DNA of 64,000 nucleotides. It comes from Leptolyngbya boryana PCC 6306 (GTDB lineage: Bacteria > Cyanobacteriota > Cyanobacteriia > Leptolyngbyales > Leptolyngbyaceae). The stretch covers positions 1,568,577 through 1,632,576 of the forward strand of contig NZ_KB731324.1 of assembly GCF_000353285.1 (NCBI RefSeq). The letters run 5' to 3'. The position numbers and the translations under genes are program-made. The notes under the pieces were generated by a model, which had not been told where the DNA came from, did not search any database, and saw nothing but the letters and a program-made list of their open reading frames with translations. Below, piece by piece: positions 51,899-55,013 of the stretch (position 1 is the first letter of the stretch; the number at the start of each line of letters is the position of its first letter).

Positions 51899-52540
51899 CG
51901 GGTGTGTACTCTCCTTAATGTTGCATCTCCAAAAATTTCAATCATTTCCGTAAGCAAAGATGCAAATTGCTCTTCATCCAAATGATAGATACTTCGACTA
52001 TAGTCATCAAATATGACGTTAGCGCGGCAATTTAGTTGCAACTGTGCCATATCTTTATCGCTGCATGCAGGATGCTCTCTCTATCTTTGATTTTGTCATT
52101 TCAACTTCATGACGAACACACAGCGTTGACAAGTGAGGTTGATAACTTATGAATCACAGGTGAATGAATGGTAAGAGCAGCTTACAACTTGAGCGACAAA
52201 AGGTTTTTGATCTCTAAGGTGTCGATGTTTGACGATGCCGTCAGGATTGCCGCCGTAGTTCGCTCAACGCAGTAAGTCTGCTCCTTTTTATTTTTACATT
52301 TCCCTTCCCAAACTTCTAAAGACTACGATCACGAGAAAGAAGGGCGAAAATCGTTGCAAATTCTAAGCGAATTCGCACGTCATTTTTGTCGGCAATCTGA
52401 GACGAATTTGTGTCAAAAATCAGCGATGCCAGTGTAATATGAATTGGGCAAACTCACCGGGCACTAAATAATCTCAATTTAGTGGATTTGGGAGCGCTGA
52501 TCAGATCGAATTGATGTCCACTGATTCGGATTTCGGGTTG
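51899..52540. other. Divergent intergenic region upstream of the HtrA-type and cyAbrB genes
   Basis: About 640 bases, noticeably longer than other spacers. It must hold two promoters. I see no RNA gene, no paired arms over 10 bp and no reliable small gene; sequence is AT-rich around 51960-52040 and 52270-52340. A regulatory RNA cannot be excluded from sequence reading alone. Confidence 0.5.
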
Positions 52541-52930
52541 ATGACTAAGAAGAAAAAGATTGAGCCACTGACGGGGGAATCTCTGCTGAAGAAGGTGAAG
52601 GAACTCGACCATCTCAATAAAGAAGAAAAAGCGAAAGAATGCGGCTATTACACGGTGACGAAAAATGGAGTCGAACGTGTGAATATGATGAAATTCCTGA
52701 ATGCATTAATCGATGCAGAAGGAATTCAATTAGATGGGAAACAGGCAACCAATGGACGAGGAGGTCGCAGTGCAAGTTACCGAATTAGTGTGCAGTCTAA
52801 TGGTAATTTGTTAATTGGTGCAGCGTATACAAAACAAATGGAATTGCAGCCAGGAGATGAATTTGAAATCTCTTTGGGACGAAAGCATATTCATCTGAAA
52901 CAACTCGATCGAGAAGAACTCAACGTGTAA
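52541..52930 (+). CDS. Cyanobacterial AbrB-family transcriptional regulator (cyAbrB)
   Basis: 130-residue-class DNA-binding regulator of carbon/nitrogen balance genes. ATG 52541 ('MTKKKKIEPLTGESLLKKVKEL') gives the usual N-terminus. The helical opening with 'HLNKEEKAKECGYYTVTKNGVERVNMMKFLNALIDAEGI' is typical of cyAbrB, and the C-terminal AbrB-like domain ('YRISVQSNGNLLIGAAYTKQMELQPGDEFEISLGRKHIHLKQ') is the swapped-hairpin fold. It is followed in 4 nt by a 36-residue membrane peptide gene. Confidence 0.92.
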   Translation: MTKKKKIEPLTGESLLKKVKELDHLNKEEKAKECGYYTVTKNGVERVNMMKFLNALIDAEGIQLDGKQATNGRGGRSASYRISVQSNGNLLIGAAYTKQMELQPGDEFEISLGRKHIHLKQLDREELNV

Positions 52931-52934
52931 TTCT

Positions 52935-53045
52935 ATGGAAAACATTGATTGGCAAACTGCTATTCCGGTGGGTCTAGCGATCGCGATTTTTCTAGGCGGG
53001 ATGCTAATGATGTTTACAGGAGTTTGGACCAGCCGAAACCGATGA
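52935..53045 (+). CDS. 36-residue single-helix membrane peptide
   Basis: ATG 52935 is 4 nt after the cyAbrB stop and TGA is at 53043-53045. The product has 'MENIDWQTAIPVGLAIAI', one transmembrane helix rich in Gly/Met ('FLGGMLMMFTGV') and a basic end 'WTSRNR'. It resembles small photosystem or cytochrome b6f/NDH-1 subunits in size and layout but does not match PsbN, PsbX, PetN, PetG, PetL or PsaM as I remember them. Cotranscription with cyAbrB is likely. A hairpin follows at 53041. Confidence 0.6.
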   Translation: MENIDWQTAIPVGLAIAIFLGGMLMMFTGVWTSRNR

Positions 53046-53070
53046 GACTCTACTTTTATAAAGTCTCATC
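53041..53070. terminator. Hairpin between the small peptide gene and the ClC gene
   Basis: GATGAGACT (53041-53049, overlapping the stop codon) and AGTCTCATC (53062-53070) form a perfect 9-bp stem. The genes on both sides converge, so it likely serves both; the U runs are poor. Confidence 0.55.
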
Positions 53071-53075
53071 TAGAG

Positions 53076-55013
53076 TTAATTCAATACGCCTACATTGGCA
53101 AGTTCAGCTTCGGTTGGACTTGTTTTTTTGGCGTGAGACAGATAAGGCGTTAACCGAACTCTCGTCAGCGCCAAATTACATGCCAATGTGATGCCTTCTT
53201 GCTCTAAAAGTCCCAGAATTTGATGCGGATTTTCGCGATCGATGACAGGAAGTTGATGCAATCCACGAGTCGCCATTCTATCTAATGCATCGGTTAATGG
53301 CTCATCTTTATAGGCATAAAGAATGTCGGTTGTACACACATCCGCGATCGTGCGATCGAGGGCTTGATCAAAATGATTCAGTTCGGTTTCCCAACGTGCG
53401 ATCGCACGATTGATATCTTGCAAGGTGATAATGCCGATCAATTGGCGATCGAGATTAACCACTAATGCACTATGACAATGATTTTGAATCAATTGCAAAC
53501 CTGCCTCTAAAAGTGGCATTGACTCTTCAACCTGTAGAAAGTTCGGATGCATTGCCTCTGCAACAGAAACATTTCTGAGCATTTCCTGCTTCTGTAAGCT
53601 CGTTGAAGTTGGGGCAGGATCACCTTTTGCTTCGATTTGCTGCAAGTTAGAAGGCTGTTCGGGATTCGATTTCAACAGATTCGCAAGCCAGACGCTCAAT
53701 CCCACCGCTGCCATCAACGGTAAGACAATTCGATAGTCGCGGGTCATCTCAAACAGCAACAAAATCGAAGTTAAAGGCGCATTCACACTCGCCGCTAAAA
53801 CTGCCGCCATCCCGACCATTGCATACGCAGGTGGTGCAGCAATGCTTCCTGCAAACATAGGGAAGACGAAAGGCAAAACTTTGCCATATGCCGCACCCAA
53901 TGTCGCACCCAAAAACATCGCAGGCGCAAACATCCCCCCGATTAGCCCGCTCCCTAAACTGACCGCTGTCATGAGCAATTTCACAACTAATAATGTCATG
54001 AGCAGGAGTAACGAGAATTGCACATCTCGCAGCATCGCTTCAACGGTGTCATAGCCTACCCCTAAGATTTGCGGCAATTTTAGGGCTACTAATCCGACGC
54101 ATAGACCGCCTAAAATCGGCTGCGCTTCCCGCGGAATTTTTGCCATCCAAACGGTTCCAGGAATTTTGCCCTGAAAGACATCACTTGCCCACTTTAAAGA
54201 AGTGGTGTAAGCGATCGACACAACACAAGCAAATAGCCCTAACCCTAGATAGAGCGGCAATTCTAGCGGACTGCGAACTTCATAAGCCGGCAGCGCAAAT
54301 GCAGGTTGTCCTCCAAGTCCAATCTGAGCAATCAGCGCTGAAACGACCGCCGAAAGTAAGACAATACTTGCTGCAGACGTTTCAAACGTCGTCCCCAAGA
54401 CCACCTCTAGCGCGAAGAATACGCCAGCGATCGGCGCATTAAATCCGGCTGCTAATCCGGCTGCTGCGCCTGCACCTAACAGTAATCGTTGGCGATCGCG
54501 CGATACTTTCAAACTCTGCCCCACTAACAACCCAAAATTTGCGCCGACTTCTACACTTGGACCTTCGGGTCCGAGAGATGCTCCAGTCCCCAACGAAACG
54601 GCTGCCGCTACTGTTTTGATAATGGGGCGAGTTGGCGACATTTCCTTGCCCGCTTGCACCGCCGCAATTAATCCTGAAATTCCTGGACTAAATTCTTTCG
54701 TGAGCCAGCGCATCAGCCCAACTAGAATTCCACCGAGCGTTGGAACACAAGCTAATGTCCAAGCCCCAAAATGCCCGATCGTTCCCATCAGGTCTTCTAG
54801 CGTCAGTCGGTGAAATAATTCAATCAAATAGCGGAACATCAATACGCCTAACCCCGCCCCACCACCGATCACAACGGCTAAGAGCAGCACGATCGTATCC
54901 GGATGAGGTTGAAGGCGATTCAGCAGACCATTGAAGCGAGATTGAGGAGCGATCGAAGAATCAGGCAGCAGAATTTTGGGCGGCGGAGTCGAGGGCACGG
55001 CAGGGGTTATCAA
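53076..55013 (-). CDS. ClC-type chloride channel/antiporter with C-terminal CBS pair
   Basis: 645 residues. The first 430 form the ClC transporter with the motifs 'TGASLGPEGPSVEVGANFGL' (G-P-E-G-P, carrying the external gating Glu of Cl/H antiporters), 'AAGLAAGFNAPIAGVFFALE' and 'GGMFAPAMFLGATLGAAYG'. Residues about 485-610 hold two CBS domains ('AEAMHPNFLQVEESMPLLEAGLQLIQNHCHSALVVN', 'TDILYAYKDEPLTDALDRMATRGLHQLPVIDRENPHQILGLLE'), likely nucleotide sensors. Gating Glu presence suggests an exchanger rather than a pure channel. Likely single gene, convergent with the cyAbrB/peptide unit. Confidence 0.93.
   Translation of the reverse strand: MITPAVPSTPPPKILLPDSSIAPQSRFNGLLNRLQPHPDTIVLLLAVVIGGGAGLGVLMFRYLIELFHRLTLEDLMGTIGHFGAWTLACVPTLGGILVGLMRWLTKEFSPGISGLIAAVQAGKEMSPTRPIIKTVAAAVSLGTGASLGPEGPSVEVGANFGLLVGQSLKVSRDRQRLLLGAGAAAGLAAGFNAPIAGVFFALEVVLGTTFETSAASIVLLSAVVSALIAQIGLGGQPAFALPAYEVRSPLELPLYLGLGLFACVVSIAYTTSLKWASDVFQGKIPGTVWMAKIPREAQPILGGLCVGLVALKLPQILGVGYDTVEAMLRDVQFSLLLLMTLLVVKLLMTAVSLGSGLIGGMFAPAMFLGATLGAAYGKVLPFVFPMFAGSIAAPPAYAMVGMAAVLAASVNAPLTSILLLFEMTRDYRIVLPLMAAVGLSVWLANLLKSNPEQPSNLQQIEAKGDPAPTSTSLQKQEMLRNVSVAEAMHPNFLQVEESMPLLEAGLQLIQNHCHSALVVNLDRQLIGIITLQDINRAIARWETELNHFDQALDRTIADVCTTDILYAYKDEPLTDALDRMATRGLHQLPVIDRENPHQILGLLEQEGITLACNLALTRVRLTPYLSHAKKTSPTEAELANVGVLN

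Follow-up and report, generated by a model that had tools for sequence, protein, structure and literature searches.

Background

PetN, PetL, PsaM, PsbM, Psb30, NdhP and NdhQ are proteins of 30-46 aa with one transmembrane helix, and like the peptide analysed here they are cyanobacterial and readily missed in annotation. The small ATP synthase regulator AtpTheta (encoded by atpT), which we take to be the 48-aa Norf1, is a protein different from our 36-aa peptide but shares with the latter that it is cyanobacterial and tied to cyAbrB. According to PMC9241938, both cyAbrBs bind the atpT promoter. The lengths of the small single-helix photosynthetic subunits are given in Table 2 of PMC5126843, and the same source describes 44 Synechocystis proteins of at most 50 aa, some of them unnamed (e.g. 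the 36-aa Chr_ORF_2). It also describes HliR1 as confined to Synechocystis and Norf4 as lacking in alpha-cyanobacteria. These two Synechocystis proteins, i.e. SliP4/HliR1 (37 aa) and Norf4 (31 aa), are membrane microproteins from unannotated transcripts and as such like our peptide in kind. Their N-terminal sequences, obtained by translating by eye the primers in PMC5126843, start with MSNLIAV and MTADQL, respectively, and are unlike those of the peptide family; membership of SliP4/HliR1 or Norf4 was rejected on that ground.

We analysed a stretch of 64,000 nucleotides (the window) from Leptolyngbya boryana PCC 6306, in which a first-pass annotation had pointed to a short frame directly behind a cyAbrB gene and had raised the possibility of a missed small photosynthetic subunit.

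Results and discussion

The frame and its surroundings

The features of the locus are the following:

52541..52930, + strand: cyAbrB gene, 129 aa from ATG (Pfam AbrB-like PF14250, E 1.6e-35)
52931..52934, + strand: 4-nt gap (TTCT) from the cyAbrB stop (TAA, 52928-52930) to the peptide ATG, of equal length in 8/8 genus members
52935..53045, + strand: 36-aa single-helix membrane microprotein, family type A (LMMFT..WT.R), from homology, selection, hydropathy and AlphaFold2
53041..53070, + strand: hairpin with 9-bp stem and 12-nt loop over the peptide stop codon, between convergent genes (folding)
53076..55013, - strand: convergent CLC-type chloride channel with CBS domains (PF00654, PF00571), a neighbour outside the peptide family
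53097..53124, + strand: stem-loop that resembles a terminator, has a T tail and lies in the 3' coding end of the CLC gene (terminator scan, 1.1 expected by chance)

The frame (MENIDWQTAIPVGLAIAIFLGGMLMMFTGVWTSRNR; 36 aa, ATG at 52935, TGA at 53043-53045) lies exactly where it had been placed, its start 4 nt past cyAbrB. The single membrane helix ascribed to it was borne out as well: its 19-residue hydropathy (mean 2.26, start residue 9) is the highest among the 293 ORFs of 30-45 aa in the window, and AlphaFold2 with single-sequence input gives one helix at residues 6-34 with a mean pLDDT of 90.

Because the frame is very short and is covered by no family model, one could hold it for a chance ORF. 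Against this stands, in the first place, strong purifying selection: across 8 genus members pN/pS is 0.09, with substitutions at codon positions 1:2:3 of 76:40:278, and over 28 loci, nearly all of the window's family, it is 0.28. Together with the conservation across the phylum and the specificity of the sequence pattern (both given below) this rules out a chance ORF, a reading to which we assign a virtually negligible probability. We consider it practically certain that the frame is a real gene, and the family to which it belongs, one of single-helix membrane proteins, is specific to cyanobacteria.

The hairpin that had been noticed at the stop is indeed present (GATGAGACT-N12-AGTCTCATC) and overlaps the stop codon; the 71-nt stretch folds with a dG of -15.2 (z -2.5), and 3 of 200 shuffles were equally good. 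Since it has no T tail, the terminator scan made no call for it, and since only one of the seven other genus members examined retains it (L004, the closest relative), we rejected the hairpin as a conserved part of the locus. The transcript of cyAbrB and the peptide may instead end at the stem-loop at 53097-53124, a possible terminator. An Rfam scan of positions 52000-53400 gave no match.

Database and literature matches

Comparison with the profiles of Pfam, NCBIfam and PHROG yielded no match at or above a curated cut-off, wherever such a value was given. Among the Pfam models DUF1206 had the lowest E-value, 0.0016 (18.9 versus a cut-off of 26.2 bits). YiaAB (PF05360) shows a weak one-helix likeness (E 0.05; 14.3 versus 26.6 bits), but it is a two-helix domain that the peptide matches only in part. 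When 177,635 distinct PDB sequences were compared with the family profiles A1 and A2 (see below), the best E-values were 7.8 and 0.05 and belonged to unrelated proteins (complex I subunit 5 and cytochrome c oxidase subunit 1). In the absence of a qualifying match, membership in any Pfam, NCBIfam, PHROG or PDB family was rejected. The family is thus without a model in Pfam or NCBIfam and without a match among solved structures. The motif strings of the family do not occur in the literature searched, and the material searched on cyAbrB and on cyanobacterial small membrane proteins names no such family.

Sequence types, conserved face and topology

The members are mostly 31-50 aa long; their N-end is acidic, their C-end basic, and one face of the helix carries conserved small residues and Met. 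Two types can be told apart, namely type A with the motif LMMFT..[WF]T.[RK] and type B with GL.ML..G... at the same position; some genomes hold both (G470, G427, G474). The weak matches of type B and of the Gloeobacter members (E 1e-8 to 4e-5) could partly reflect convergent glycine-rich helices, although of some 200 non-photosynthetic genomes a single one reached even E 0.008. A related-looking one-helix peptide of 47 aa (MENISTLDLLFVTAIALLIVISGGIVYL...; L280, G362:C130) matches the profile weakly (E 5.7e-5) and has no convincing match among the PDB chains; it may represent a separate small-protein family.

Over residues 12-30 the conservation is periodic, with a peak at 100 degrees per residue on profile A2 (permutation p 0.011) and at 110 degrees on A1 (p 0.03), and the conserved face consists of G12, A15, I18, G22 and M25; on A2, A15 is invariant and I18 and M25 are conserved to at least 90%. 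The clustering of the conserved positions on one helical face suggests that the helix packs against a partner in the membrane. In 92/93 type A peptides and in 41/46 of the other distinct peptides the C-end carries more positive charge than the N-end, which by the positive-inside rule argues for an N-out, C-in topology.

The periodicity is moderate and is compatible with homo-oligomers too. A face of small residues would suit self-packing, and duplicates of the gene have surroundings that look mobile, e.g. type I restriction-modification operons, as might be expected of a small pore or a toxin-like effector of membrane stress. The family, however, is widely kept, mostly single-copy and strongly purified, it has no match in the phage, plasmid and viral collections, and no conserved antitoxin partner adjoins it, so that we hold the homo-oligomer reading for highly improbable. 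An origin from phages or plasmids was rejected, given that same lack of matches to the family in the three collections.

Extent of the family

A search with the single sequence (291 class genomes, E <= 0.01) matched the peptide in 109 genomes, from its own genus at 86-94% identity out to other families. For the 386-genome phylum sample two profiles were used: A1, built from class members before that sample was searched, and A2, built from types A and B and partly from genomes in which A2 itself later found the family. A1 gave matches in 100 of the 386 genomes at E <= 0.01, three weak f2 matches included, and A2 in 104, of which 99, every one within the class, have E < 1e-7. The five remaining A2 matches, four of them in f2 (E 0.004-0.009) and the fifth in a different class (E 0.008), were dropped. 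The f2 matches L145 and L146 (E 0.004-0.009) are longer proteins that share just a short helix stretch and were discarded along with the similar G559, and G540 (f2, E 0.009) and G382 (the other class, E 0.008) were discarded on their E-values alone.

Photo_RC (PF00124) is present in 173 of the 386 genomes. If these and 13 further class genomes listed without it are taken to make up the class, it comprises 186 genomes, 57 of which (by row count) form family f2, and 200 genomes remain outside the class. With profile A2 at E < 1e-7 the peptide family is present in 99/129 class genomes outside f2, in 0/57 f2 genomes and in 0/200 genomes of the sister classes. Family f2 has genomes of 1.6-3.7 Mb, presumably those of the picocyanobacteria (Prochlorococcus and marine Synechococcus); all 57 carry Photo_RC, and neither A1 nor A2 found a credible peptide in any of them. 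The approximately 200 genomes of the non-photosynthetic sister classes, which are without Photo_RC, likewise hold no credible peptide, the sole match being that at E 0.008 in a 194-aa frame (G382). The family is thus absent from the non-photosynthetic sister classes and restricted to the photosynthetic class, and as far as the profiles can tell it appears confined to oxygenic cyanobacteria.

When 12 genomes were searched at E <= 10, nothing credible appeared in 8 that the profile had missed (G271, G266, G389, G191, G016, G035, G023, G245), which argues that some losses of the peptide are real. Another locus, L278, had no family frame when re-searched, and L286 was rejected as a possible pseudogene of the family since it does not match (E 0.049). 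The family would accordingly seem to have been lost in picocyanobacteria and several other lines, and loss in many lines implies that the peptide is dispensable there.

A degenerate core pattern, applied to a collection with one genome per species, hit at least 116 contigs; every listed one is cyanobacterial and contains a family member, with an E-value no worse than 3.6e-12. Organisms among the listed matches are Thermosynechococcus (L170, L179, L236), Trichodesmium, Richelia, Nostoc, Anabaena, Calothrix and Phormidesmis, and a further peptide-positive genome, G031, is in our estimation probably Synechococcus elongatus. At the far end of the range, G013 and three other searched genomes of its family each hold a member (E 1e-8 to 4e-5), and the one in G013 seems to begin with GTG. 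KaiB is missing in G013 alone among 41 genomes tested, and we take this genome to be Gloeobacter violaceus. Gloeobacter has no thylakoids. The family probably reaches Gloeobacter, with its weakest members there, and its presence in that genus suggests that it is older than thylakoids.

This distribution bears on the proposal that the peptide is a missed small constitutive subunit of PSI, PSII, cytochrome b6f or NDH-1. Its restriction to oxygenic cyanobacteria, with no credible match in the approximately 200 sister-class genomes without Photo_RC, fits such a subunit, and so do its size and single helix, which resemble those of PetN and PsaM. Unlike PetN/PsaM-type subunits, however, the family has no convincing match among PDB chains and no credible f2 member despite Photo_RC. 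Thermosynechococcus is the usual source of structures of such complexes and carries the gene, so that the lack of a PDB match argues against a fixed component of those complexes whose structures come from this genus; a subunit bound loosely or in substoichiometric amounts would escape such a comparison. A constitutive subunit should moreover occur wherever its complex occurs, whereas the peptide is missing from all 57 f2 genomes and from some other photosynthetic genera, although some real subunits are lineage-specific too, and its probable member in Gloeobacter speaks in the same direction. The first-pass suggestion of a photosynthetic subunit therefore holds as to the restriction to photosynthetic cyanobacteria and fails to find support in the structures, in f2 and in Gloeobacter. 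We consider this identity unlikely, a fixed subunit of a photosystem, b6f or NDH-1 being less likely than an accessory subunit or regulator.

Association with cyAbrB and other neighbours

The cyAbrB frame upstream of the peptide can alternatively be read from a TTG at 52511 (139 aa). The 4-nt gap between the two genes suggests a shared mRNA and translational coupling. Among the 152 loci fetched, cyAbrB lies directly upstream of the peptide in 35, with a spacing that ranges from an 11-nt overlap to 286 nt; these comprise 27 of the 32 peptide-bearing genomes of the window's family, a second contig of one of them (L033) and, from four further families, 7 genomes. One and the same cyAbrB paralogue is found at all 35 loci (63-100% identity to the window's, 48-61% to the other copy), by elimination presumably cyAbrB2. 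In other families the peptide has cobO, msrB, CbiQ, a MacB-like permease and others as its neighbours. The gene shifts relative to its neighbours while its sequence stays conserved, and the change of unrelated neighbours from family to family suggests that it functions on its own.

At least two cyAbrB genes are present in 38 of 39 class genomes tested, whether or not these have the peptide. Two are found in all 8 genomes that were negative at E <= 10 and in 5 more unmatched by profile A2, whereas the peptide-positive genome G143 has a single one. Linkage limited to certain lineages, combined with cyAbrB pairs in genomes that lack the peptide, points to an operon arrangement of some lineages, not to an obligate pair, and an obligate cyAbrB partner was rejected. 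A dedicated partner in a wider sense, e.g. a membrane anchor or signal input that sequesters the regulator, would explain the upstream cyAbrB in those 27 family genomes and in 7 genomes of four families as well as the constant paralogue, but the linkage is missing in most families, and the 13 peptide-negative genomes with two cyAbrB genes and G143 with one do not fit it; we regard this reading as decidedly unlikely. What had been described as coupling to cyAbrB is thus a property of the window's own lineage and not a defining feature of the peptide. Within that lineage the frame was found conserved with the synteny, contrary to the outcome that had been named as a refutation: it is kept with the exact 4-nt gap in 8/8 genus members, and 27/32 family genomes have the peptide behind cyAbrB. 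On two contigs (L012, L033) of one assembly (G288) the cyAbrB-peptide-CLC locus occurs with identical peptides, probably an assembly duplicate.

The regions of 300 nt upstream of 221 non-redundant starts were scanned for HLR1, NtcA and Fur-like motifs, which were found 0, 10 and 0 times versus means of 0, 17.1 and 0.02 in mononucleotide shuffles. No light or nitrogen element is common to these upstream regions.

The CLC gene lies convergent to the peptide in 27 loci. KdpF and CydX are tiny one-helix proteins as the peptide is, and one family member weakly matches the KdpF model (E 0.029). On these grounds one may think of a regulator or small subunit of one transporter or oxidase, either the adjoining CLC channel or one served by a subunit of the KdpF or CydX type. 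Yet only two families have the CLC gene next to the peptide, and a comparison of 23 genomes shows that CydA is missing from the window's genome and two other peptide-positive genomes while present in peptide-negative ones, and that KdpA is missing in 9/13 peptide-positive genomes while present in 6/10 that are peptide-negative or picocyanobacteria-like. As co-occurrence with KdpA and CydA fails, a Kdp or Cyd subunit was rejected as the general identity, and any such single-transporter or single-oxidase role is in our judgement very unlikely.

A second peptide copy, 41% identical over 34 residues, is present in the window's genome. Second copies of a subtype with MLVSG.WSARDK lie between hsdM and hsdS of type I restriction-modification operons (L003:3178-3288, L061:1548-1658). 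The copy in the window's genome (G000:C1, near 4348177) ends 5 nt before hsdS, and a VapB/VapC-like toxin-antitoxin pair, assigned by eye, lies between hsdM and this copy (L003:2490-3138). In G020 the copy follows hsdM by 6 nt and overlaps the hsdS frame.

Conclusions

We somewhat favour, at a little better than an even chance, that the peptide acts as a single-helix accessory subunit, or as a regulator, of a larger membrane complex into which it packs. It would insert as one helix with its N-end outside or in the lumen and its C-end in the cytoplasm, and the face formed by G12, A15, I18, G22 and M25 would pack against a transporter or an integral membrane complex of larger size, packing into copies of itself being less likely; the packed helix would then stabilise or tune its partner complex. 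The family may already have been present in early cyanobacteria, and later lost from the picocyanobacteria and from several further lines. In the lineage of the window the peptide would be transcribed together with one of two cyAbrB regulators, and the 4-nt gap makes co-translation probable. We propose that by this co-expression the production of the peptide coincides with that of this global C/N regulator.

A broader and rather doubtful extension is that of an undescribed core cyanobacterial membrane microprotein that predates thylakoids and ranges from Gloeobacter to Nostocales, i.e. a general adaptor helix that would tune a complex common to plasma and thylakoid membranes, became tied to cyAbrB in some lines, and had duplicates recruited to other operons, among them type I restriction systems, in which they lie between hsdM and hsdS.

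About three quarters of the non-picocyanobacterial genomes examined (99/129) carry this family, for which Pfam and NCBIfam have no model. The peptide thereby provides a defined sequence for unassigned helices in membrane complexes, and a deletion target of 33-40 codons.
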